Shown here piece by piece: positions 5,527 through 21,741 of a DNA stretch of 22,861 nucleotides. This DNA comes from a virus: IMG/VR virus record IMGVR_UViG_3300022864_000015, positions 1 through 22,861 of that record; one strand, written 5' to 3'. Position 1 is the first letter of the stretch; each line of letters opens with the position of its first letter. A model generated the notes under the pieces. The model did not search any database. It was not told where the DNA came from and was given only the letters and a program-made list of their open reading frames with translations. A program made the translations under genes and the position numbers.

Positions 5527-8500
5527 TTATTTATTCCATCTACCTCGATTCTTTCTTAATACTGATCTGTTTCTCCTAGAGAATATTCTTCCTGGTCTTT
5601 CTCTACCATTTATTTCATTGACAGATTGTTTGTAAGTAATCTTATGTTTGTTCCTGTAGAAAGGATCTCTTAGCTGTTTGATAGAAGAACCTTTGATTAT
5701 CTTGCGTATCTTATCACTATAATATCGCTCTTGTTTAACCATCCTTCTCTGTTGTGCAAGCTTGTGAGGGTCTTCTGCTGATGATCCTGTGCCTATATTT
5801 AGACCTGCTGCACCTCCTAAGAAGCTTGTTGAGTATTTTGTCTTACCTTTTGCTCTAAAGAAAGTAGGTGCTGTTGATCCAACTATATGTTTTGCTCTGT
5901 CTGATAGCTGTTCTCCTATGGTAATTTCTCCACTATCGTTGGTAATAGGTAATCCCATAAAGTTTCTATTCTCTATCTGCTCTACAACTGTCTTAACACC
6001 CCAGCTTAACTTACCTTTAGCAAAAGACAACGGTCCTCTTTCTGCTAAAGCAACAAACTGAGAAAGTTCTCGCCAGATAAGAGGGTCTGCATATGTTCTT
6101 TCACCTGAAGGAGTCTTGAATGGCCCAACGTTGGGTAATCTGATCCTTGCAAACTTTCCGGGCTCATTCTGGAACATCCATCTCTTTTTAGCAAAGATTC
6201 CTTCTTCTTTGTCTTTATCATCATCATCCATGAAGCTGAGTCCGAACTGTAGTAAGGAAAAGAGTACAAGTTTGATAGTTATAATCCTAGCTAAATGAGC
6301 TTGATAGTATTTAGAAAGGTAATCCATCTCTTGGCTTGACTTATCTCCATGAAGGAGACTGTTAAGAACACTACTATTACCTACTCTATACTTATGTTTG
6401 AATCCTAGAGCCTTGTTTACAGGGTACATAGCTCCTGTAACCTGCTGTAAGAATGACATAGTAAAGTTTCTAGCAAACAATCCTACCTGTAGGAACTTAG
6501 CTTCAGCTCCATATCTATGCTTATCTATCATACCTGAAGTGCTGGATGTGAAAGCTACTGCTAACCTAGCTGCTTCTTCTAATCTAGCATTCTTGTCCGT
6601 TATTTGAGGATTAAACTTAGGGTCTGCGATGAACCTATCTATCATAGAATTAGAGAATGTATACATAATCCTAGCAACATAGTGATTAAAGACATAATTA
6701 TCGATACCTGCTTTACCGCCCATTGTATCTTTTAGCTGTGCCATTGGATCTCGAAGTGTTGGGTGCTTGTCTGAAAGCTTCTTATCAAACAAAGTTTCCA
6801 TAACATGATCAGCTAGGAAGGCTTCTTGTCCATGTCTTTGGAGTAAGCTAACTCGTTTAGGATCATACCCATAGTTATTCATATGTGCAAAAGCATCTGT
6901 CTTGTTAGCCATATGTTCTTTAACGCCTTGAACACCGAGACCACCACCCCAAATAAGAGGCTTTATTCCAACGTTCCATAGTGTCTTAGGGTCCATCCAC
7001 AACATCGGAGATGAGGCTATCTGGATAGCAAAATTGTAAGGACTTAACATTATCTGTCTCTTTACGAATCCATTGACAGCTAACAAGCTCTTGGTAAATT
7101 CTGTGCTCTTTGGCTTGCTATCATACAACTGGCTTAATAATCCATACACATCTCTATGAACCCAAGGCATGTTGGTTGCACTACCTCTGTGATCAACTAA
7201 CCCAGGTGCATTCTTCATCTGAATATATCCAAGCTTAGTCAGCATATTAGCTGGCCTTAGTCCTTGTTCATTCTTGACTATTGCTGGATCTGTCTGGTAA
7301 GCAATATATCCTATGTCAACGGTGTTACCTTTGCTGTCTTGTACCGTTGGCAAGCCACTCTTATTTACTGGTCTAATCTCTTTGAGCTTAATAATCATGT
7401 CATTCTGAGCTACTTTTTCCATAGATTCTTGAACATAGTTGCCTAAAGCTGCACCATAGTTAGTAATAACATCTAATCCGGTACCTTTTTCTGCATGAGC
7501 TGTTGCTACGGCTGCTTCTGCAGCTGTCCTGAAATCTTTTCTTTGAACGTTGGGTGCTTTTAGATTTCCAGGTGAAGCCTTGGTGGAGTCTTTGTGTAAC
7601 CAGAATCCAGGAGTAAAGCCATTCTCAGCGTTGGCTTGATTAGGCGTACGATCTAAGAGTCCTGAATCTTTTAGTGATCCGAACATAACATCTTCTATCT
7701 CATTCTTGCAGATAATAATAGTATCTTGTAAAGCTTTAGGTAGAGATGAGTAATATAATAAGGCTGGCTTACTCTTCTTTAGGTCTTCTATCTCCTGTGT
7801 GGTCATAGGAGTTCCTTGATCCTCCATAAGATTTGTGTAGATAAGCACATTAGCTTCCATTTCGGCTGTATTACGCTTGCCTTTATATTTAGGTAAATTA
7901 GTAATACCATCTTGCCAAGGACCAGGCATGCCAACATCAGCTATTCTTATATTATAGGTACCCTTTACAGTCATGATTTCTTGATTAGCAAACCACATAT
8001 GATCTAATAATGACCGTTGGATAGATTGTTTCTCTTCTTTTGTCTTGCCAGGATATTCTTTCTCTACATAGTTATATACAGTAAGATGAACAATATTACT
8101 AATAGCACCTGCATTGAATCTAGCTAATGTTCCAGCATGCTTTTCATTGATATAATCGGCTACTATCTTATTAACATCACCTTCAGAAATATTAGTCTTA
8201 ACTTTAGCAAAGCTATTTGGTCTTAATGGATCGCCTAAGACACCAAGTTGTTCTCTTATCTCTTGATCAGTAAGAAGGGGATCTATCTTCTTTCTAAGAG
8301 CCATTAAGGCTTTTAAGGCAAAAGAGTACTCTATCATATCTTCTTTCAATATAGTAGGCTCTAAGGTTGTTTTAAGGGCATTCTTTTGCTCACCTGTCAA
8401 CATATACCCTAATTTCTTAACAGCACCTCTCCAGCTAGCATTCTGTATGTTCTGATCGTTCAAGAAAGCAACATCAGTAAACTCAGCAGGGATGTCAAAG

Positions 8501-11500
8501 AACAAGGAATTTTCTACTTCAATCTCCTTGAGGTTATACATCACTCCTTCTATCAATATGTCAAAGTTCCCAGTTACAGTAGTCTTAGATCCTTCTTTCT
8601 TTATTCCATAAGTTCCTGGAGCAAGGTATGTATCCTGATGAGTCCTACTGTTTAGCAAAGAAACACCTTTCTCTGTGATAACCATATGTCTTTTCTTAAG
8701 CTTTTCAAGTTCAGAGTCTTGCCTCTTAGCTATTGCTTTTTGTAACATAGTAAGCTGGTCTATCATATAAGCTACTCTTGTTTTCAAGAACTGTTCTTGC
8801 TCTTGTTGAGTAAGCTTGTATCCTCCAATAAGCATTGTCTCATGTTGTGCATTAAAGTGAGGATTAGGAATAAGAGCTTGTTTCAGATCACTCCATACTT
8901 CTCTAACAGTTTTAGCTGGATCTCCCTCAATTATTCCTTGTGCAGTCCATTGTTTTTTATACTTAGACCAACGTTTGCTTACATTAGCTACTCCTGCCTT
9001 GTTCTTTTTTACATTCTTGAACAACTCAATCATGTAGTGATTCTTAGCACCCCACTTAATCGTGTCAATATTATCAATAGATTCAATAAACTTAGTAAAA
9101 GTAATATAATTCTTTTCAAGCCTAGAGACTATACCAATAAGCTTATCTCCTTGAATGTCAACTTTCTTGGGGTTAGCATAATATAGGTCTTTCAAGCTAT
9201 TAGCTAATAATTTATTATTCTCTTTACTCTTTCCTACATACATTTCATTAATAGCATAGTATATGTAAGCTTTTGTATTTCTTAAGAATTCATTAAACTC
9301 TTTCAAGAACATATGCTCAAAGCCTTTAGCATCTCCTGTTACGCCTCTTGATCCTACTTCACTTGCAGTAAGAGACTCTTTAGCTATAGAACCTTCTGGT
9401 GTTTCATTTATCTCTTTAGCTGTTTCTTCTCCAGAAACCTTCTCGCTCATAGACTTAAAGTATTCTTCTACTTGTAAGTCTTCAATTATTCTTCTCTTTC
9501 TTATGTCAGCATTCCTTACCTTAATAACTTCTTCTTTTCTATTTAGAGTTGCTATGTCTTTTTCAGGTGCTCCATCAGCTTTCTCAGAAGTTCGTAATTC
9601 ACGCCTATTCTCAAGGAAAGCATCAATTATCTGTTGTTCTTCGTTTGTTATATAAGGTTCCATAGCTCTAACTTGTGCTTGTGCTTTCTTATTACCCAGT
9701 CTTGCCATCTCAAACACATCTAGCCTATCTATCTTTTCACCGCTTATTAGAGCCTTCATCTTATTCTTTGCTACATCAAAAGGAGCTTCAAACATCTGAA
9801 CAGGTCTGTCAGGAACGAAAGCCTCTGCTTTAATTCCTTTAGGGTTCTTATACTCGTTAGGTACATCTTTAGCAGGAACTTGCTTACTTCCTGTTCTAGT
9901 CTTTAAATGCCATATCTCAATATTCTTTTTCCTTCTTTTAAGAGTTCCTTGATCTCCTTCTTTTAAAAGAGCCTTGCCTGTGTTATAAGTTTCATCTACA
10001 GTTACAGTTGTTTTCCAATACTTCTTACCCTTCTTTCTCCCTGGTTCTTCGTAGAGAGTTCTTCTAGAGAACTGCGTGTTGTCTTCTGATGTAGACTCCT
10101 TAACCTCAGCTATCCTCTTTCTAAGCTCTACTTTCACTCGTTCATCGGAAGATGCATTGAGTTCCATTTGCAAGGAAGCTAGATAGTTAGACCTTTTAGA
10201 AAACTGTATTGGAGCTCTCGCATATATACCAGCTCTACGTTGTGCAGTTCTGAATGGATTAAATCTTGCCATCTTAGAAGTAGTCCATCCATCCATAGTT
10301 GAAAGTTTCTTCTTAAGATCGATATCATTTGCTATTGCTATTTGTTTCTTAGCTTTCTGCAAGGCACTTAGATAGAATATATTAGTGATCTCATTAATAT
10401 CATTCATAGTCATCTTCTGAGCATTCTGAGTATTATAAGAATCCAACCAAGCCATAAGACTAAAGCTTTTAAATGATGTGTTCTTTCCTGTTTCTATAGC
10501 TTCTTTATTACTCATGTCTTTATACAACATCTTGTATGATACGGCTTCACATACAGTTTCCTCTAACTGTGCCATTAGAGCAGACGTTGGTCTGTTTTTC
10601 TTAGTATCCCAAGAGACTAAAGAAGTTAATAATTTATTATCAATTCCACTCTCCTGAATCAGTTCATATCTATTTGCTCGAACTTGCTTTGCAGTCAAGG
10701 CTGTTGTAGCTTTATCAAGGTTCTTAAGATTTTCTCTCTGGTCTGTTCTTAACAAGTAATGAACAGTCTCATGCATCATCTTATGCATAACACCATCAGC
10801 TAAATTGTTTATCTTGTATATTTCAGGGTTAGCTTTAACTTCTTTTTCAAACCAAGCTTGTAGTTCATCAGCAAATACAGTCATCTGATCAGCATGATCC
10901 TTAGTCCATTGAGCTATATTATGTATTCCATCAGTACTCTTATCGAATACTGTATCTAAATACTGTGAATACTGTAGAAAAGCTGGGGCATCTCCACTTG
11001 CTATTAAGCTCTTAACATGATTTAAAGCGTTGATGATTTCAGGACTATAGCCTAAATGTCTAAGTTCAGCAGTTAGTTCTCTAGTGGATAGAGTAATTCT
11101 AGGTGAGCTACCAGCAGAATATGATCCTGAGTTAAGTACGCTTATGAATTCTTCTGCTGCTTTCGTTGGGTCAACTCCTTCTCCAACAAACTTTATCTTT
11201 CCTAAATCAACATAAGAAGAATCCTTCTTGTCTTTAATGGTTGATCTCGCTCCTAAGTCCCTAGCTAGTATTTCTAAAGTAGTGATCGGAGACTTCCTAG
11301 AGATAGCACCGCCTTCTGTGATATGCTCAAACATGTTAGGTCCATAAAAGACCTCTTGATTCTGAGAAGCTTGTTCATCTACAGTTGCATCAGAAGACAC
11401 ACCACCAAGAGGAACAATAACATTCTCTTGAAGAATCTTTATTATTGCATCGTTATCTATGCCAGTCTTGTTGTTTAAGGCTTCAGCACTTAAGTTCAAT

Positions 11501-12783
11501 AGCTTTTCTTTATGATATATAGGCAGGTCACCTAACCCAAGAGTTCTTCCCTCTCCAGCATGAAGCTTAACTCCTTTAGGATCAGATAATTCTTGCATAG
11601 AAGAAACTAGGTTAGAATTAACAGTAGTCTGTTGTTCGCTTGTAAGCTGACTGTATGTATTATCAGGAGCAGCTCTGTCAATAGACTTTACATCTACCTG
11701 TGCGTCTTTGTTAGGAGCTAAGTATGCTTCTTTCCTTGTGTCAGCAGTCTCTCTAGCTACAGTCTTAGTATCGAGCTTGCCAATCTTCTCGTTCAAAACT
11801 TTAGTAGTCTTAGCTACAATGTCTGATTGAGACTTTAACAAGGCCCCAGATACAACACCATCTACAGTCTTAGATATAGTTTCAAAGGAATATACCTTAC
11901 CATTGTCATCTCTTACGCCATCCTTCTTAAGGGTTCGCCATACATCTCCAGATATTTGCTCTAGTGTATGTTGATTCTTACTAACTATAGCACTACCACC
12001 GCCCATTACACCACCTGCTAAGAATCCACCTACAAAACCTTCTAAAACACCATCAGTAATATCTTGATATAAGTTATCTGTACCTTTCCATCCATAGACT
12101 TTTAGAACATTACCAAATACTCCCTGTGCAACTTCTTCAGAACCTTCAGTCAACCCAACGGAGAATAGCTTTCTTGCAATGTTTGTTCCAGGCTTCATAA
12201 ACTCCATCAAAGGAGCAACTTCTAAAGCTGACTCAGCAATCCAATCTAACATAGCTAGCTTACTAGCTTCTTGAACACTCAAACCATTATCTCTAGCCTC
12301 ACGATAGAAAGAAGAACCTGTAACGGCACCCAACGGCTGTGTCCCTAAGAAACCCCATCCGAACTGAGCAATCTTACTTAACTTCCTACCATTAGCCAAC
12401 GAAGCACCCAACTTCATAGCTCCGCCTCCACCCAACAGTCCTAACCCAACGCTAGGTAATGCCTCACCCAACAGTCCTGCTGATCGAGCAAAAGGATTCT
12501 TACCAAGAGTTAATCCAGGTACAGGAGCTTCCCAACCAGTAGATGCTTGTTCTTTCCAGTAATCAGAATGTTCTCTACCCCACTGAGCTAACTCAGGATC
12601 ATTGTTGGCTTCTCCCATCCAATTAGCCATATCTCCAACACTACCTATAAGACCTTCTGTACCTCTCCCTAGTCCAGCTGCTGCTTCTCTAAAGATATTA
12701 GGTCTATAGAACTTGCTGTTAATATCATTCTTACTTCTTGGTGCTTCTCTTAGACCAGTTGAATCTGTCTTTGGTATAAACAT
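5527..12783 (-). CDS. giant ejection / internal virion protein with HExxH motif
   Basis: This 2418-residue protein is the last of the virion genes, the place held by the largest ejection protein in podoviruses (T7 gp16 position). It is probably packaged in the capsid and delivered through the tail with the DNA. Gly/Ala-rich hydrophobic segments near residues 105 to 130 and 240 to 270 may insert in membranes. HETVH (H671, E672, H675), followed by EETVCEAVS at 741 to 749, looks like a zinc metallopeptidase site. An SH3/KOW-like stretch lies near 925 to 975. A hydrophobic helix at about 2165 to 2184 ends in MDDDDKD, and the last 65 residues are strongly basic. The layout resembles the large polyvalent proteins of phages. 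I see no polymerase motifs as in N4 vRNAP. ATG 12783 is the first start after an in-frame TAA and has only a weak ribosome site. Confidence 0.82.
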   Translation of the reverse strand: MFIPKTDSTGLREAPRSKNDINSKFYRPNIFREAAAGLGRGTEGLIGSVGDMANWMGEANNDPELAQWGREHSDYWKEQASTGWEAPVPGLTLGKNPFARSAGLLGEALPSVGLGLLGGGGAMKLGASLANGRKLSKIAQFGWGFLGTQPLGAVTGSSFYREARDNGLSVQEASKLAMLDWIAESALEVAPLMEFMKPGTNIARKLFSVGLTEGSEEVAQGVFGNVLKVYGWKGTDNLYQDITDGVLEGFVGGFLAGGVMGGGSAIVSKNQHTLEQISGDVWRTLKKDGVRDDNGKVYSFETISKTVDGVVSGALLKSQSDIVAKTTKVLNEKIGKLDTKTVARETADTRKEAYLAPNKDAQVDVKSIDRAAPDNTYSQLTSEQQTTVNSNLVSSMQELSDPKGVKLHAGEGRTLGLGDLPIYHKEKLLNLSAEALNNKTGIDNDAIIKILQENVIVPLGGVSSDATVDEQASQNQEVFYGPNMFEHITEGGAISRKSPITTLEILARDLGARSTIKDKKDSSYVDLGKIKFVGEGVDPTKAAEEFISVLNSGSYSAGSSPRITLSTRELTAELRHLGYSPEIINALNHVKSLIASGDAPAFLQYSQYLDTVFDKSTDGIHNIAQWTKDHADQMTVFADELQAWFEKEVKANPEIYKINNLADGVMHKMMHETVHYLLRTDQRENLKNLDKATTALTAKQVRANRYELIQESGIDNKLLTSLVSWDTKKNRPTSALMAQLEETVCEAVSYKMLYKDMSNKEAIETGKNTSFKSFSLMAWLDSYNTQNAQKMTMNDINEITNIFYLSALQKAKKQIAIANDIDLKKKLSTMDGWTTSKMARFNPFRTAQRRAGIYARAPIQFSKRSNYLASLQMELNASSDERVKVELRKRIAEVKESTSEDNTQFSRRTLYEEPGRKKGKKYWKTTVTVDETYNTGKALLKEGDQGTLKRRKKNIEIWHLKTRTGSKQVPAKDVPNEYKNPKGIKAEAFVPDRPVQMFEAPFDVAKNKMKALISGEKIDRLDVFEMARLGNKKAQAQVRAMEPYITNEEQQIIDAFLENRRELRTSEKADGAPEKDIATLNRKEEVIKVRNADIRKRRIIEDLQVEEYFKSMSEKVSGEETAKEINETPEGSIAKESLTASEVGSRGVTGDAKGFEHMFLKEFNEFLRNTKAYIYYAINEMYVGKSKENNKLLANSLKDLYYANPKKVDIQGDKLIGIVSRLEKNYITFTKFIESIDNIDTIKWGAKNHYMIELFKNVKKNKAGVANVSKRWSKYKKQWTAQGIIEGDPAKTVREVWSDLKQALIPNPHFNAQHETMLIGGYKLTQQEQEQFLKTRVAYMIDQLTMLQKAIAKRQDSELEKLKKRHMVITEKGVSLLNSRTHQDTYLAPGTYGIKKEGSKTTVTGNFDILIEGVMYNLKEIEVENSLFFDIPAEFTDVAFLNDQNIQNASWRGAVKKLGYMLTGEQKNALKTTLEPTILKEDMIEYSFALKALMALRKKIDPLLTDQEIREQLGVLGDPLRPNSFAKVKTNISEGDVNKIVADYINEKHAGTLARFNAGAISNIVHLTVYNYVEKEYPGKTKEEKQSIQRSLLDHMWFANQEIMTVKGTYNIRIADVGMPGPWQDGITNLPKYKGKRNTAEMEANVLIYTNLMEDQGTPMTTQEIEDLKKSKPALLYYSSLPKALQDTIIICKNEIEDVMFGSLKDSGLLDRTPNQANAENGFTPGFWLHKDSTKASPGNLKAPNVQRKDFRTAAEAAVATAHAEKGTGLDVITNYGAALGNYVQESMEKVAQNDMIIKLKEIRPVNKSGLPTVQDSKGNTVDIGYIAYQTDPAIVKNEQGLRPANMLTKLGYIQMKNAPGLVDHRGSATNMPWVHRDVYGLLSQLYDSKPKSTEFTKSLLAVNGFVKRQIMLSPYNFAIQIASSPMLWMDPKTLWNVGIKPLIWGGGLGVQGVKEHMANKTDAFAHMNNYGYDPKRVSLLQRHGQEAFLADHVMETLFDKKLSDKHPTLRDPMAQLKDTMGGKAGIDNYVFNHYVARIMYTFSNSMIDRFIADPKFNPQITDKNARLEEAARLAVAFTSSTSGMIDKHRYGAEAKFLQVGLFARNFTMSFLQQVTGAMYPVNKALGFKHKYRVGNSSVLNSLLHGDKSSQEMDYLSKYYQAHLARIITIKLVLFSLLQFGLSFMDDDDKDKEEGIFAKKRWMFQNEPGKFARIRLPNVGPFKTPSGERTYADPLIWRELSQFVALAERGPLSFAKGKLSWGVKTVVEQIENRNFMGLPITNDSGEITIGEQLSDRAKHIVGSTAPTFFRAKGKTKYSTSFLGGAAGLNIGTGSSAEDPHKLAQQRRMVKQERYYSDKIRKIIKGSSIKQLRDPFYRNKHKITYKQSVNEINGRERPGRIFSRRNRSVLRKNRGRWNK

Positions 12784-13941: not shown

Positions 13942-14667
13942 TTATTTATATTGACTCGTGAAGCTGGATCCATAACCTGCATTCGAAGCAGCCTGACTTG
14001 CTGAATTGTAAGCAGGTAATGTATTCCCACCGTTTGGTTGACCTGACCAATAATTAGCTTGTGTCTGACCAGTATTAATACCCCATTGACTAGCCATCTG
14101 TCCAGCAGCACTACCAAGACCTGAGAAGTCTGGACCTGCACCTGATTGACCACCAGATCCTCCATAATTAGTAGTATACTCTGGAGTTCTAGGCATAGCT
14201 GCCATTCCTGATGCACCTCTCCACATATCTTGTCTACGGTTCTCACCTCTCATCTTTGCAATATCAGCAGCAAAGCCTGTCTTCTGGCTGGCCATCTCAT
14301 TACCTACCCTACCGATGTTAGCCATCATAGCCTTGTTTCCAACTCCACCCATTGCTCCAGCTTGCATAGCTAATCCAGCAGCACTATTGCCTCTATTGCC
14401 AGCAGTACCCATGTACTCTCTATTAAGCTTTCTTTCTTGCTCTACTTGCATACCTTGATAATACTCTTGCATCCATGGAGGTTCTTCACCCTCCATAGCA
14501 CCACTATACATTTCTCGTTGTTGATCTCGAATACCTTGATAGTCATCATACTCATCAATGTAAGAGACTTCCAATCCAGGCATACCTTCTTGTTGACTTG
14601 CATTGTACATACTTGCACCTGCTCCAACCACTGCTGCCCCTCCGATTGCCCAAGCTACCATTGTCAT
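13942..14667 (-). CDS. putative ejection / internal virion protein (first of trio)
   Basis: This 241-residue protein begins MTMVAWAIGGAAVVGAGASM, one short hydrophobic Gly/Ala stretch. The body is rich in Gly, Ala, Met, Gln and Ser (GLAMQAGAMGGVGNKAMMAN), a composition typical of the small ejection protein (gp14-like) that forms an outer-membrane channel. The longest open frame begins 42 bases earlier at 14709. I prefer 14667 because AGGAGG lies six bases before it and because it makes an ATGA overlap (14664-14667) with the cupin-like gene. The Ser/Gly/Asn-rich C-terminal 90 residues look disordered. The ejection role is inferred from composition and position. Confidence 0.68.
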   Translation of the reverse strand: MTMVAWAIGGAAVVGAGASMYNASQQEGMPGLEVSYIDEYDDYQGIRDQQREMYSGAMEGEEPPWMQEYYQGMQVEQERKLNREYMGTAGNRGNSAAGLAMQAGAMGGVGNKAMMANIGRVGNEMASQKTGFAADIAKMRGENRRQDMWRGASGMAAMPRTPEYTTNYGGSGGQSGAGPDFSGLGSAAGQMASQWGINTGQTQANYWSGQPNGGNTLPAYNSASQAASNAGYGSSFTSQYK

Positions 14668-15164
14668 TTTGAACCTCCTATTTTTAAAGTGTTCTCTTCT
14701 ATAAGACACACAGCTGGATCGTCATATGTCTTTGCTATAATATAGTCTTCTATCTTTTCTAAATCTGTCTCATCTGTGACATGCGTTGTAATCCAGACAG
14801 TATCTTCATGCACGTATATAATCCTTTTAGTTCCTGGCTCAGTTATGCCAGCGTAAGGTGCCTTTATTCTCTTAGCCCCTGCTTCCGTTAGAACAGAACA
14901 CTCTCCACTCATAACAAAGTAAGGATGTCTGAACTTGTGTATCTTGCTTGTTAAAAGAGTTCCTTTAGGCATAAATATCTCTCTGACATACGCACCATCT
15001 ACAAACTTATGCTTCAACGGTAAGAATGTCTCATCATTTTCATGTCCTTCTAAAGCTCCAGGCACTTTCTTAAGTTGTTCCTCGAAGGCCATTATCTTCT
15101 TACGGAAGTCTTTTATCCCAGTAACAAAGAAGCCATTTATCTCTCTTTCAATCAATTCTTGCAT
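14664..15164 (-). CDS. cupin-like phage protein
   Basis: This is a 166-residue protein whose second half has the cupin pattern. Motif 1 has H76 and H80 in KIHKFRHPYFVMSGE, followed by Gly-containing turns. Motif 2 has H119 and H128 in YVHEDTVWITTHVT. The first 40 residues are helical. Cupins of this kind are seen in phage tail-gene clusters without a proven role; a metal-dependent activity or a structural small beta-barrel are both possible. The start at 15164 has AAGGAGAAAC before ATG, and the stop overlaps the start of the next gene. No conventional enzyme assignment can be made. Confidence 0.65.
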   Translation of the reverse strand: MQELIEREINGFFVTGIKDFRKKIMAFEEQLKKVPGALEGHENDETFLPLKHKFVDGAYVREIFMPKGTLLTSKIHKFRHPYFVMSGECSVLTEAGAKRIKAPYAGITEPGTKRIIYVHEDTVWITTHVTDETDLEKIEDYIIAKTYDDPAVCLIEENTLKIGGSK

Positions 15165-15172
15165 GTTTCTCC

Positions 15173-15409
15173 TTATGTTAGTGCCACATAGCCAAGGTTT
15201 CCCTTGCCTGTTGTTACATATAATCTCTTAGTTCCTGATCCATTATCATATATAGCTATTTCCCCAGGACTCAATGTGCTTGTTGTTGGTACAACATCAG
15301 TATTCTTAATCGATGCTGCATTATTAAACAATGTTTCCAGCATGTTCCTAAGAATAGCTACTTGTGTCTCATCAAACTTAGTAATGTCTCCAGGCTTGCT
15401 TATTGTCAT
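15173..15409 (-). CDS. small structural protein, tail-associated
   Basis: The product is 78 residues. A helical N-terminal half (TQVAILRNMLETLFNNAAS) is followed by VVPTTSTLSPGEIAIYDNG and RLYVTTGKGNLGYVAL. The second half resembles the short beta-strand module that displays as 'PTTSTL.EGEIA.YD....KRLY...' in many phage tail and fibre proteins. It overlaps the nozzle-like gene by ATGA (15406-15409), which supports co-translation. A minor tail or fibre-attachment protein is the best guess. Confidence 0.6.
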   Translation of the reverse strand: MTISKPGDITKFDETQVAILRNMLETLFNNAASIKNTDVVPTTSTLSPGEIAIYDNGSGTKRLYVTTGKGNLGYVALT

Positions 15410-18400
15410 AAGATCATCGGTGCCTCTGAGTATACTCCTTTAAGTTCACTTAATCTAAAAGGAAATAAGTCATTTTTAGCTATAGAGAAGTTAATTTCTT
15501 CTCCCCTTGCTGTGTCATGAAAAAAGCTCTCCCAACGCTCTGGATGAGAAGCCAACGATACTTCAAATGAATCATCTGATATGTTGGTCTCCCATGAGAA
15601 AGTAAAAGATCCTTGAGTTCCTTCATGTACTGTTCCTATTTTCTTGAAGAATTTATCTTGCATAGGAGAATCAAAATTCCTAAAGCCAAACTCGTACAAA
15701 TGATTAACTGAAGTTTCTGCATTTGTAGCCCCTTTTTCATAAGTATACCTAACTACGAAAGCATTAGTAAAGTAAACTTTTGGATTATCGTTCTTAGTAT
15801 CATCGGCAGTAAACTCAATCTTATATTGTATCCATACGTTTGCTGTTGAAGCAATCTCTGAACCATTAGGATCAGATAAAGCTGAGCTCCAACTTGCTGC
15901 TTCACAGGCAGTCTTAGTAGCTCCTGTTCTAGTATGTATAAGGATATTGTCTGTTGCTGTTGCCGTAATAGATTCATTCCAGTACACCTTGTTTAGACTC
16001 TCTGCATCAATCTGTTGAGATGGAGATGTCCATGAACCTGATGTATATTTATTTTCAATACCTGTATTATAGTCCTTCATCTTACCTAATAACTTTCTAA
16101 ATATTCTAAATGTTCTTGATGGTGGAATTGTAGCTGATACAGACTCTGATGTATCCCATGTAATAGGATGAGTATGATGACCTTGACATTGGGCATGATA
16201 TCCACCATTACCATAACGATTAACATCAACTCCTGTTGTAGTAACTGCTGTTGTATGAGTATGAGCTGCATTAGCTGCTGCTCCAGTACCTGGAGTGTCT
16301 GTCCCAATCTTAATATATTTACCTGTATAAGTAGAAGTCTTATCTGTCCAGCCTGTCCCTGGAGTTCCAGCTCCATCATATAAGCAATAGACAAACTTCT
16401 GTGCCCCATCCCAAGTGTCAGACTCACCGATCTTTTTAATAACTCTGAATTCTGCATAAGCTACTTCCCAGTCATCTTGTACAGTAGAATTAGTTGTATC
16501 TGAAAAAGCATGGTAGTGATCTGATCTTGGACAATCTGTACCACCATCTGACTCTCCACCACCTGAAGTTGAAGCATCTGTATCGCCACTAAAGTCATGA
16601 GAATGAGATGTTGAAGCAGTTTCATTCAAGACAGAAGAGCCCATCTGTATATAGTATCCATCACTGTTCCCAACGGCTGCTGTCAACACTTGCCACCCAG
16701 TAGGTGCCGTTGGCTGATCCCACATAACAATAGCACCATCAGGAAACTCTGTGTCAGAATTAGAATCAGACTTAAAAGCTCTTAATTTTATATGTCTTGG
16801 TCCTATTGAAGTAGAATCATCGGTATCAAAAGCAGTAATAGGATGAGTATGAGCCCACACAACAGCGTTCTGACTACCATCTCCAGAGTTCACAGCAGAT
16901 CCTGCATAACTAGGAATAGTACCTGCCATCTCATGCTTATGTCCTGTACCAGCAAATTCAGTTCCAGTTGTAGCATGTATGAGCAAGTATGAACCATCAG
17001 AAGAAATCTCTGTCCAACCAGTACCTGGTGTAGTATCTTCCTGGTCCCAGAAGATAACAATGTCATCAGCAATAGCATCTGCCGCAGATGTTTCTCCGAT
17101 CTCTATATAAGGAGCATTCTCAGTACCACCAACAAACACATCAGAAGATGTGCCAGCGTTGGCTTCTGTCTTAGTCTTTAATCTATATGTATCTTCAGAA
17201 GTTTTTTCTTTAACCACATAACCATTCTGAGAATCTCCATAATAAAGCTCTCCAGTTTCATCATCACCTGTCTTAGCAGCAAAGCAATTAGCTCCAGCTA
17301 CCGTAGTAGATGTCCATAAGTCATAGGATAAGGCTTGTCTTTTAAAGTTATACCTCATGATTCTATTATGATACTGAGCTGCGATAGTATCATCTGTGTA
17401 AGCAGCCAAGAATATACCTTCATGCATGAACCCAACGGTATCAGAATAATTAGATGGAAGTATTGATCCTGTATCAAACTCATCTATAATAGCTGATACT
17501 TGTGATCCATCAAACCTGTACCAATGATCCCATCCTAAGAACACAACACCATAAGGAGTTTGAGTAATAGACCATTGAGCAGGAGAACCTGTAAAAGCAA
17601 TAGGATCATCAGCATACCAAGAAGTAGGGTCTGCTCCGGATGTTGGAGAAGTAATATGTAACACTCTAATAGTATTCTTCTTAATACAAATCATCATACC
17701 TAGCTGAATAGGAATACCCATGATCTCATCATTATCTTCAGGTGATATCTCCATATAATCTAAATTAGCTGTTTGCTGTATGTAATGAGGAAGATACGGA
17801 TTGCTATAATAAATCTTATTAGGATAATTAGGATCGGCTGTAATAAAGAATCTTTCTCTATGGACCTTAATTATGCTTCCCTTAGGCATATCATCTGTGA
17901 CAGAAGGATAACCAGCACCCAGCGATCCATCTGCTATATCATCTGAATAAGTTGTAGTCGTATTATCTGCTATTGTAGCAAGAAGCTTTAAAGATGAACC
18001 ATCACCCTCTGTTCTATAAATCTTTCTATTAGAAGTTCCTACTGGACCCAACGGTATGTTTGTAAGCTCTACTTTCCTAGATGTAGCTGTGGTGATAGTA
18101 TTACTCACAGCCCCATTGACAACAGCATCGTCATCAAAGGTAACTCCGTAGTAATATTCAGCAGTTGCATCAAGGTTACCACCAGTAGTGCCTAGGGCAG
18201 CCTTACAGGCCCCCAGTTCCCATGTTGTGTTAGAAGACGCTCCATCGTATACCCAAATGTTATCGTAGCCGTTAGAGCACATAAGAAGGTCTTTATAAAC
18301 TTCAAAGTTACATCTCTTTCCATCAGTAAGACCAGCTCTTATTTCAGTAAAAGCTCCTGTTGCATCAGCTCCAACATAAGCCTTAGTACCATGTACAGCT

Positions 18401-18642
18401 ATAAACTTAGTAACACCAGATGATGTATAGTATCTCTCTAATCCCACTACTGCACCACTACCTATGGTAGTAGTGTTAAAATAAGTTACTGGATCTCTCT
18501 TGTCAACTGCTCCGGGTTCTTCTTCAAATCTACAGTTCTGAGCAATCTTAACCCACTTATCTTTAAGGTCTAAGTCTTCAACCTGATTATTCATACCAGG
18601 GAGAGTCTTTAATACAAATTGTTTTAGTTGTTCTGTGAGCAT
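15406..18642 (-). CDS. tail nozzle-like protein with three inserted collar-type domains
   Basis: The product is 1078 residues. It starts MLTEQLKQFVLKTLPGMNNQ and continues into a beta-propeller-like region to about residue 500, with repeated strand and Gly-Trp patterns (VYDGASSNTTWELG, WDHWYRFDGSQVSAIID). This start and the C-terminal region (about 855 to 1078) look like the nozzle or tail-tube end proteins of SU10/T7-like podophages, which form the distal part of the short tail. Between them, at about 528 to 850, lie three tandem domains of the tail-collar type, each with two HxH motifs. The gene follows the adaptor gene with a TAATG overlap at 18642. The nozzle role is inferred from length, position and style; the repeats are read directly. 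Confidence 0.7.
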   Translation of the reverse strand: MLTEQLKQFVLKTLPGMNNQVEDLDLKDKWVKIAQNCRFEEEPGAVDKRDPVTYFNTTTIGSGAVVGLERYYTSSGVTKFIAVHGTKAYVGADATGAFTEIRAGLTDGKRCNFEVYKDLLMCSNGYDNIWVYDGASSNTTWELGACKAALGTTGGNLDATAEYYYGVTFDDDAVVNGAVSNTITTATSRKVELTNIPLGPVGTSNRKIYRTEGDGSSLKLLATIADNTTTTYSDDIADGSLGAGYPSVTDDMPKGSIIKVHRERFFITADPNYPNKIYYSNPYLPHYIQQTANLDYMEISPEDNDEIMGIPIQLGMMICIKKNTIRVLHITSPTSGADPTSWYADDPIAFTGSPAQWSITQTPYGVVFLGWDHWYRFDGSQVSAIIDEFDTGSILPSNYSDTVGFMHEGIFLAAYTDDTIAAQYHNRIMRYNFKRQALSYDLWTSTTVAGANCFAAKTGDDETGELYYGDSQNGYVVKEKTSEDTYRLKTKTEANAGTSSDVFVGGTENAPYIEIGETSAADAIADDIVIFWDQEDTTPGTGWTEISSDGSYLLIHATTGTEFAGTGHKHEMAGTIPSYAGSAVNSGDGSQNAVVWAHTHPITAFDTDDSTSIGPRHIKLRAFKSDSNSDTEFPDGAIVMWDQPTAPTGWQVLTAAVGNSDGYYIQMGSSVLNETASTSHSHDFSGDTDASTSGGGESDGGTDCPRSDHYHAFSDTTNSTVQDDWEVAYAEFRVIKKIGESDTWDGAQKFVYCLYDGAGTPGTGWTDKTSTYTGKYIKIGTDTPGTGAAANAAHTHTTAVTTTGVDVNRYGNGGYHAQCQGHHTHPITWDTSESVSATIPPSRTFRIFRKLLGKMKDYNTGIENKYTSGSWTSPSQQIDAESLNKVYWNESITATATDNILIHTRTGATKTACEAASWSSALSDPNGSEIASTANVWIQYKIEFTADDTKNDNPKVYFTNAFVVRYTYEKGATNAETSVNHLYEFGFRNFDSPMQDKFFKKIGTVHEGTQGSFTFSWETNISDDSFEVSLASHPERWESFFHDTARGEEINFSIAKNDLFPFRLSELKGVYSEAPMIL
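16093..17061 (-). repeat. three tandem collar-type modules, coding repeat
   Basis: Three modules of about 100 residues start near 528, 637 and 750. Each contains a P-x-GW or PGTGW turn, a Gly-Tyr strand (SYLLIH, GYYIQMG, GKYIKIG), then two HxH motifs: H568/H570 and H598/H600; H680/H682 and H709/H711; H794/H796 and H823/H825. Each ends in a basic-hydrophobic strand (IKLRAFK, AEFRVIKK, RTFRIFRK). The two motifs are 29 to 30 residues apart in every copy, and the modules repeat every 112 to 114 residues. Confidence 0.75.
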
Positions 18643-19379
18643 TATTTCTCCATAGTCTTAGACATTAGTTCTTCGTCTGTTCGTTCTCTTCCTAATTCAA
18701 TCTTATAATCTTTTATCTTAGCAAAGTATTTGTTCCAGTTATCGTTGGCTTTATCTCCAAACCCACGATCTTCACAACCAGAAGCTACAGCATAATTTAC
18801 TGCTGCTGGATGTAGTGGTTCGGGTAGCTGAGGGTCTTCTGAATCTGAAGTCAAATCAACATGAGCATTAGAATAATACACTCTCATATAGTTTGCTCCA
18901 GCATTATCATCATTAGGTGGAGGATTAACACCTAAAGTGTCTTCTTCTCTGCTCCAATAATATTTCTGAGGAATACTTGTATTTGAGTCATAATTGTATG
19001 TAGTATCTCCAGTATCAGTATCAGTAACGCTGTACCCAATGTTGCTCCTCCAACCTGGATAATCTTCATCAAGATCATCTGTTATGACAGGGTCTAACTT
19101 GATCCAATCAGTGCCATCCTTCATGAAATACAACTTCTCAACTGAATATAAATTAGCAAAGTAGTCTGAAAGAGTATATTCATTAGACTTAGCTGAGTCA
19201 TCATTAGATTCACAGCTTATAGATGTAATGTATCCGTTGGCTTTAATACTCTTTGTTCTGAAAGAAATGTCTTTTAGTGCTTCGTTGATGTAGCTATTAA
19301 GCTCAGTATCAGACCAGAAAGCTGAACTATTGTCTCCCAATCTCTTCCTAACTCTTGTTCTTATCTCTAATAAATTCAT
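18642..19379 (-). CDS. SU10-type tail adaptor protein
   Basis: This 245-residue protein begins MNLLEIRTRVRKRLGDNSSA and continues FWSDTELNSYINEALKDI, the characteristic start of the phage adaptor family (SU10_adaptor type), which binds under the portal and links it to the tail nozzle. The middle is acidic and Asp/Ser-rich. Near the C-terminus LPEPLHPAAVNYAVASGCED and a Lys/Glu-rich helix match the usual adaptor end. The start at 19379 has AGGAG five bases upstream. It lies directly before the nozzle-like gene, the expected order. Confidence 0.78.
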   Translation of the reverse strand: MNLLEIRTRVRKRLGDNSSAFWSDTELNSYINEALKDISFRTKSIKANGYITSISCESNDDSAKSNEYTLSDYFANLYSVEKLYFMKDGTDWIKLDPVITDDLDEDYPGWRSNIGYSVTDTDTGDTTYNYDSNTSIPQKYYWSREEDTLGVNPPPNDDNAGANYMRVYYSNAHVDLTSDSEDPQLPEPLHPAAVNYAVASGCEDRGFGDKANDNWNKYFAKIKDYKIELGRERTDEELMSKTMEK

Positions 19380-20798: not shown

Positions 20799-21200
20799 TT
20801 ATGCCAAAGTAATTATTCCTGCTGCGTTCCATTCAATCGTGAATGTTCCTGAACTAACTGATTGTGCTCCACCAAAGTCTATTGAACAAATTAAGTCATC
20901 TCCAGCAGTCTCATCATAGATTACTGCATGATAAGCTGTAAAAGTAGCTGCTGTCCAAGCGGTATCAGTACCATCCCACTTAGTTGTTGCTGCTTCTGTT
21001 ACTGCTCCACCGGCTAATTCCTTGTCTCCACGAGTGTATCCACCTGTTGTTGCAAGTTCATTTGTAGTTGTATAATTAGTGTCTGTCGCTGTGAACGCAT
21101 GACTGTTATCATACAAAGCTACAATGATAGTATCTCCTTCTAAATCAACTACTTTGTTGAAAAGATTAGCCTTGAATCTATTGTAAATGCCTGAAGCCAT
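20799..21200 (-). CDS. phage structural protein (MASGIYNRFK family)
   Basis: This is a 133-residue protein with the recognisable opening MASGIYNRFKANLFNKVVDL and then DTIIVALYDNSHAF. This pattern is common to small head/tail structural proteins encoded before the adaptor. The rest is beta-rich with many Thr, Gly and Ala (YTTTNELATTGGYTRGDKEL), and the C-terminus ends FTIEWNAAGIITLA. The start at 21200 has GGAGG nine bases upstream, located inside the 3' end of the endonuclease gene. Family-level assignment is fairly secure; its exact place in the virion is not known. Confidence 0.65.
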   Translation of the reverse strand: MASGIYNRFKANLFNKVVDLEGDTIIVALYDNSHAFTATDTNYTTTNELATTGGYTRGDKELAGGAVTEAATTKWDGTDTAWTAATFTAYHAVIYDETAGDDLICSIDFGGAQSVSSGTFTIEWNAAGIITLA

Positions 21201-21741
21201 TATAGTTACCTCCGTTTAAGTATTTAATTGCTTGTTTTAAATTATCTATATTATCCATCATTAACCCTAAACCAACATTGCACTTGTGGCATAAGAGTCC
21301 TCTTACTTCTTCTGTAAGATGGTCATGATCTACCATTAATTTACAGGTTTTTCCTTTTGCTGTTTTTCTTGTTTCTGTTTTACCGCATATAGCACACACT
21401 CCATTCTGAAATTTAAACATTTGTTTATATTGACCTAAAGTTAGAAATCTTCCGTGCTTGATATCATCACCCTTCCAAGAATGCCCTCTTTTAGTATTAC
21501 CAGTAGAAATTCCCAGTTCTTTTACACGTAAATCAGTCTCTTTTGTTAATCCACGATTCCAAGCTTTATTGCCTCTGTTCTTGCCAAGAGTAGCAATACT
21601 AATTCTCTGCTTAGTTTCTTCTGAACATGGTTTTCTATCTAAGTTCTTCATCTGAATACTTTTTTCTGTTCTCCATTTTAGAGTACACCTTTTCTTAGCA
21701 GCAATGCTCAGCTTACATCTGTGTTCTTTAGTGAACTTCAT
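21178..21741 (-). CDS. free-standing homing-type endonuclease (endonuclease VII-like HNH with NUMOD3)
   Basis: This 187-residue protein has two NUMOD3-like DNA-binding motifs, at about residues 4 to 18 (TKEHRCKLSIAAKKR) and 40 to 66 (SEETKQRISIATLGKNRGN). An endonuclease VII-type HNH domain follows: C116-x2-C119, DHDH at 138 to 141, C151-x2-C154 and N155. All zinc ligands and the catalytic D/H cluster are present, so it looks active. Such genes insert in phage genomes and cleave related phages lacking them. It overlaps the upstream 51-residue gene by ATGA and the downstream structural gene by 23 bases. No intron boundary is visible around it, so it is free-standing. Confidence 0.85.
   Translation of the reverse strand: MKFTKEHRCKLSIAAKKRCTLKWRTEKSIQMKNLDRKPCSEETKQRISIATLGKNRGNKAWNRGLTKETDLRVKELGISTGNTKRGHSWKGDDIKHGRFLTLGQYKQMFKFQNGVCAICGKTETRKTAKGKTCKLMVDHDHLTEEVRGLLCHKCNVGLGLMMDNIDNLKQAIKYLNGGNYNGFRHLQ

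Follow-up and report, generated by a model that had tools for sequence, protein, structure and literature searches.

Fiber tips with HxH motifs have been described as homotrimers, which fold from three chains and dock onto a six-fold tail. In T4 gp37 and, by inference, in SU10 gp16, one HxH motif from each of the three chains contributes to an iron site of six histidines (PMC9509320, PMC11705849). In the SU10 nozzle gp17, a loop with three tryptophans in a pseudo-threefold arrangement docks the trimeric short fiber (PMC9509320). The window analyzed here, i.e. the whole 22,861-nt stretch of IMG/VR virus record IMGVR_UViG_3300022864_000015, raises the question of what is built when three tip modules of this kind follow one another in a single chain, within a protein that resembles a podovirus tail nozzle. 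Our answer, which we consider likely, is that the modules (M1-M3) form a tail-collar/HxH fiber tip in cis: a single pseudo-threefold head for receptor binding, with two sites predicted to hold metal. To our knowledge, no collar/HxH block is present in the solved podovirus nozzles.

The following features define the protein that carries the block and the gene next to it:

15406..18642, minus strand: putative nozzle protein of 1078 aa in which the block lies (ORF; Foldseek of the AlphaFold2 (AF2) model; full-length relatives)
17098..18642, minus strand: N-terminal nozzle core, residues 1-515 (conserved; similar in fold to a platform and propeller region)
15409..16047, minus strand: C-terminal nozzle core after the block, residues 866-1078 (conserved; aligns with block-less nozzles)
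18642..19379, minus strand: SU10-type adaptor (PF24175 SU10_adaptor, E 4.3e-19; phrog_399, 9.5e-17)

Searches with the whole 1078-aa protein returned nothing convincing from Pfam, PHROGs or NCBIfam, with no Pfam hits at all, and the nozzle profile matched no solved nozzle among the PDB sequences; a lack of sequence similarity has also been noted between the T7 and SU10 nozzles (PMC9509320). The full-length AF2 model was weak (mean pLDDT 54), and contacts between its domains were unreadable. Foldseek with this model placed podovirus portal-tail/nozzle entries at and near the top (best E 4.9e-8), with unrelated propeller proteins interspersed among them. The nozzle/hub and portal-tail entries were those of Pa223, LME-1, VP1, cyanophage A4, P22, GP4, T7, Sf6 and SU10 (7z4f, E 1.8e-4), and the platform and beta-propeller fold of the weak model is thus similar to known nozzles. 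The N-terminus of one relative (L008) matches the PHROG for head closure Hc3 (phrog_8040, 1.5e-10). Both in fold, as judged by Foldseek, and in the position of its gene beside an adaptor gene, the protein is like the nozzles P22 gp10, Sf6 gp8, T7 gp12 and SU10 gp17. A preliminary description had called the protein nozzle-like, which is borne out by the podovirus entries and by the SU10-type adaptor gene as its direct upstream neighbor; we treat it here as a podovirus tail nozzle. The DNA strand opposite the block contains only short ORFs without support.

Within the nozzle, the block consists of three modules with two HxH motifs each:

16750..17085, minus strand: module M1, residues 520-631
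16414..16749, minus strand: module M2, residues 632-743
16084..16413, minus strand: module M3, residues 744-853
16933..16941, minus strand: M1 HxH-1 (H568-K-H570), predicted upper metal site; both histidines of the motif invariant among relatives of the HxH type
16843..16851, minus strand: M1 HxH-2 (H598-T-H600), predicted lower metal site; degenerate (HGEH) in relatives L017 and L034
16597..16605, minus strand: M2 HxH-1 (H680-S-H682), predicted upper metal site
16510..16518, minus strand: M2 HxH-2 (H709-Y-H711), predicted lower metal site
16255..16263, minus strand: M3 HxH-1 (H794-T-H796), predicted upper metal site
16168..16176, minus strand: M3 HxH-2 (H823-T-H825), predicted lower metal site

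A motif scan found exactly six HxH motifs in the protein (starts at 568, 598, 680, 709, 794 and 823), with gaps between HxH-1 and HxH-2 of 30, 29 and 29 residues in M1, M2 and M3 and module steps of 112 and 114, in agreement with the three consecutive two-motif modules noticed initially; the repeats hold over the span first given for them (16093-17061, residues about 528-850), but their boundaries are better placed at about 520-853. The protein has 28 histidines in 1078 residues; shuffled sequences of the same composition contain 0.70 HxH on average, and six were reached by 2 of 20,000 shuffles, spacing left aside. Profile comparison of the modules by hhalign, run on alignments of relatives, demonstrated their homology (E 2e-17 for M1/M2, 7e-21 for M1/M3 and 3e-14 for M2/M3). 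The histidines of the motifs are invariant or nearly so in the HxH-bearing relatives, which are otherwise 48-67% identical to the window protein.

The block (residues 510-866) was also modeled by AF2 on its own, from an input of 26 sequences, giving a mean pLDDT of 78.4 and a pTM of 0.77. By our estimate, a pTM near 0.35-0.4 is expected for three independent domains, so the three modules of the model probably pack as one unit. According to DSSP, HxH-1 of M1 lies just ahead of strand 62-70 and HxH-2 starts strand 89-97 (numbered as in the model). A hairpin with one motif on each arm should look like this; M2 shows a similar pattern, which is less clear in M3. In a Foldseek search with the block model, no PDB entry, T4 gp37 and gp12 chains included, was found at E <= 0.001. 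The sole significant match in BFVD was Pas28 of Actinoplanes phage phiAsp2 (E 6.6e-14). Between the block and the independently predicted Pas28, TMq was 0.52 over 430 columns (rmsd 14.6 A), which exceeds the value of about 0.33 that we estimate for one superposed module alone. This relationship came to light through structure search only; tblastn of the block against isolated phages gave no convincing relative.

Pas28 and the adjoining Pas29 (PHROG 5795) contain twelve HxH motifs each, in three groups of four, and Pas29 bears the GenBank note "possible receptor recognizing protein; contains HXHY motifs". Among proteins of this type, including relatives from viral contigs, every one of the 41 complete blocks is made of three modules, each with four HxH motifs in register, at gaps of about 7, 7 and 29-32 residues and module steps of 134-146; two of the 41 have an extra HxH, a fifth in one module and a stray one downstream, respectively. 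Like the window nozzle, Pas28 and Pas29 thus combine three tandem collar/HxH modules per chain, in register, with about 30 residues from the last descending to the ascending motif. They differ in having four HxH per module instead of two (3 x 4 against 3 x 2) and in that the modules lie in large proteins beside a long tail protein (Pas27) instead of in a nozzle. Since the last phiAsp2 gap equals the nozzle gap of 29-30, the nozzle module looks like the same needle minus two seven-residue turns. A joint tree, built on a very divergent alignment, parts the nozzle modules from the phiAsp2 modules (support 0.90), which hints that the two triplications may be independent.

Membership of the modules in the tail-collar group emerges from a chain of profile matches. 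None of the modules reached the curated cut-off of Pfam Collar (PF07484), with 1 of 23 modules at E 0.014 and the others unlisted; the collar-type heads that some relatives carry in the gene after the nozzle match PF07484 at 8.7e-5, a score of 22.8 bits that is under the cut-off of 24. The modules nevertheless display the collar motif order, G-x-I-x-x-W ... P-x-GW, the HxH pair and a closing strand, as in the M2 string GAIVMWDQ..PTGW..HSH..HYH..FRVIKK, of which M1 and M3 contain variants. The PHROG tail fiber protein family phrog_2097 was matched by 9 of the 23 modules (best 1.3e-5). The nozzle modules are further tied to the tail-collar group because M1 matches phiAsp2 module 1 (E 3.6e-11), phiAsp2 module 3 matches the collar-type heads after the nozzle (E 2.7e-12), and these heads match the PHROG tail collar fiber protein (up to 2.8e-21). 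The collar/HxH assignment made in the preliminary description thus stands on motifs and on tail-fiber family matches; as for its comparison with T4, the only match of the module profile among PDB sequences was the T4 gp37 tip 2XGF (E 0.14).

Scans of IMG/VR yielded about 40 related nozzles. All 22 other HxH-type relatives with a complete block have three modules with paired HxH motifs in each, apart from the one degenerate site, and a few of their modules contain a third HxH. A profile search of 12 records detected three modules in all ten HxH-type records and scaffold pieces of three modules in both HxH-less records; it detected no further module outside the block. In the module tree, the copies of M1, of M2 and of M3 group separately, each in one clade (support 0.75, 0.92 and 0.93), so the triplication is older than this group of nozzles. 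About eleven relatives keep the start and end of all three modules, while the excursion that carries the histidines (profile positions about 45-88) is absent from every one. On a core-domain tree, built with FastTree and weak at its shallow nodes, the HxH and HxH-less states switched at least six times, in all three modules together and with no mosaics; exchange of the block as one cassette could partly cause this all-or-none pattern.

Two homologous nozzles, L035 (741 aa; N-terminal core 54% identical to that of the window) and L037 (797 aa), lack the block altogether and resemble the P22, Sf6, T7 and SU10 nozzles. They align with the window nozzle up to residue about 516-528 and resume at residue 850 (L035) or 868 (L037). 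The site that is empty in them, at about residues 516-860, is clean, and the block is, by sequence comparison, a discrete insertion in the nozzle. No cellular copy of it was found in a scan of a genome collection. Homologues devoid of the modules had been named beforehand as evidence against the initial idea; those found lack either the whole block or the HxH excursions, a pattern consistent with an adhesin cassette that can be swapped.

We propose the following architecture for the block. After giving one third of a collar, each module would descend a central needle with HxH-1, reverse direction in a variable loop at the tip and climb back to the collar with HxH-2. On this path the ends of a module lie together, so that the next module can be joined on, and M1, M2 and M3 of one chain would build one head with pseudo-threefold symmetry. 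The head would hold two metal ions, probably iron, each at a predicted cluster of six histidines to which every module lends one HxH. Since the nozzle is a hexamer in SU10, the tail end would display six heads, which would act in receptor binding with no trimeric fiber that needs assembly or docking. A trimer in cis requires exactly what the relatives display, always three copies with motifs equal in number and in register, and M1-M3 are therefore most likely one head; this packing is deduced from the AlphaFold confidence and the repeat-number rule. Three copies per chain are most simply explained by one trimer in cis, a simpler solution than three adhesion modules in a row.

The receptor-binding role is suggested by the most variable parts of the block. 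Within the protein, identity is lowest in the tip loops that separate the two HxH motifs of a module (0.30-0.33), as compared with average pairwise identities of 0.58-0.64 for the N-terminal core (residues 60-515) and 0.52-0.54 for the C-terminal core (residues 866-1078). In HxH-less relatives, matches to carbohydrate-binding domains occur inside single modules, F5/8-type in M3 of L008 (E 0.0025) and CBM5/12 in M2 of L068 (E 6e-5); decoration of one module of three is natural only if the subunits are covalently distinct. Both features suggest surface recognition, and they speak against the block being a folding or assembly element, e.g. a tail-tip plug or scaffold. We regard such an element as rather unlikely, even though two relatives manage without the block and at least one possesses other fiber-like and minor-tail genes. 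Further additions were observed elsewhere in the family: the L018 nozzle (5995-10575) contains another insertion of about 450 aa ahead of the block, and L003 and L053 have extra domains in M3 of the nozzle.

The same modules might instead trimerize in trans, each with the same module of two neighboring nozzle subunits, so that a hexamer would form two trimers per module position. Known collar/HxH tips (T4 gp37, SU10 gp16 and, by prediction, R22Y) are indeed homotrimers of separate chains. This arrangement, however, gives no reason for the module number of exactly three that the nozzle and phiAsp2 families have in common; a pTM of 0.77 is already obtained for a single chain, inserts are found in one module of three, and three linked trans-trimers about a six-fold axis would probably be sterically awkward. 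We thus consider it improbable. A string of three independent domains, each with its own four-histidine site or no metal and acting as spacers or as separate weak adhesins, would agree with the modules being tandem repeats with four histidines each. We find it likewise improbable in view of the high pTM of the whole block, the TMq with Pas28 over 430 columns, the module number fixed at three and the loss of excursions from all modules in concert; moreover, two HxH motifs about 30 residues apart along a hairpin would be expected to lie apart on a needle of the T4 gp37 type. We reject ordinary propeller blades, as the insertion is discrete, has collar-type motifs and is missing from two homologues.

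The proposed cis head can be compared with several known systems. SU10 gp16 has a collar-like tip with two histidine pairs (194/196 and 230/232), six copies of which are displayed on the hexameric nozzle (PMC9509320); it is a separate homotrimer docked non-covalently, whereas the tip domains of the window are part of the nozzle chain. The T4 gp37 tip (PDB 2XGF) resembles the module in its HxH needle under a collar, but consists of three separate chains with seven iron sites, as quoted in PMC11705849, against one chain and two predicted sites here. The tail fiber gp12 of Alteromonas phage R22Y, a marine podovirus, also carries six HxH per chain (PMC11705849). It is predicted to be a homotrimer in which each motif meets its counterparts of the two other chains, giving six irons per fiber, and its description contains no threefold internal repeat, unlike the window nozzle (PMC11705849). 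A preprint on mycobacteriophage baseplates reports a pseudo-trimeric claw as well as an accessory complex that is a heterotrimer (PMC13252515), from which it follows that phages make threefold interfaces from non-identical parts. Among open-access sources, we found no report of single-chain collar trimers.

On a more general level, it is fairly probable that single-chain versions of the collar/HxH tip evolved in phages, probably more than once, and that the one of this podovirus group, fused into the nozzle, supplies a fiber-tip-like receptor-binding head without a separate fiber, its covalently distinct subunits allowing one of the three to diverge or to gain a carbohydrate-binding domain. 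A single-chain tip would remove the mismatch in chain number and let the three subunits specialize. If correct, a simple rule follows: three tandem modules with equal HxH counts make one head with that many metals. Such a rule could be used to spot these adhesins among unannotated phage proteins, and the head would be a soluble monomeric mimic of a trimer that is easily tested.

Whether the block replaces separate fibers or adds to them can be judged from the genes around the nozzle, above all from the gene that follows it:

15173..15409, minus strand: small conserved "stalk" gene after the nozzle, headless here; candidate tail needle or short trimeric fiber

In relatives, the stalk N-terminus occurs alone (77-83 aa) or with a collar or other C-terminal head. 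The window and the majority of HxH-type relatives have the headless form; a collar head is present in L012 (4274-4897), L015 (9249-9869) and L029 (4638-5267), and the stalk gene of the block-less L035 (3881-4423) also bears a head. The heads vary among relatives (none, tail-collar, lectin-like or other), a further copy being that of L005 (5927-6535). A 54.6-kb relative additionally has a gene for a 678-aa fiber-like protein and a collagen-like minor tail protein. The preliminary description had suggested that the block replaces or adds to separate fibers. Replacement is weakened by L012 and L015, where the block and a gene for a separate collar-tipped protein are both present; addition to other adhesins is indicated by the heads of L012, L015 and L029 and by the fiber-like, wedge-type and minor tail genes of the 54.6-kb relative. 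The wedge-type genes of this relative (L114, 15595-16833 and 13805-15598) adjoin each other, contain a common domain that matches PHROG baseplate-wedge and structural proteins (best 5.7e-48) and possibly encode further adhesins.

Several other genes in the vicinity of the nozzle were recorded. At 14664-15164 (minus strand), the window encodes a 166-aa cupin-looking protein with a match to the PHROG "tail fiber adhesin" (5e-35); several relatives, among them L006, L007, L029, L034 and L037, also encode it close to the nozzle. Small proteins with a cysteine cluster (CKKCGKCC-like) are encoded close after the stalk gene in L005 (6546-6755), L008 (5499-5849) and L015 (9869-10141) and possibly bind metal, beside an adhesin for which metal binding is predicted. 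A 2418-aa ORF without convincing family match occupies 5527-12783 (minus strand) of the window, and some relatives have long ORFs in a comparable position (1100-1350 aa in L002-L007, part of them truncated at contig ends). Upstream of the tail genes, at 21178-21741 (minus strand), lies a gene for an HNH protein of the Endonuclease VII type (8.5e-20), possibly a homing endonuclease, which also matches NUMOD3 weakly.
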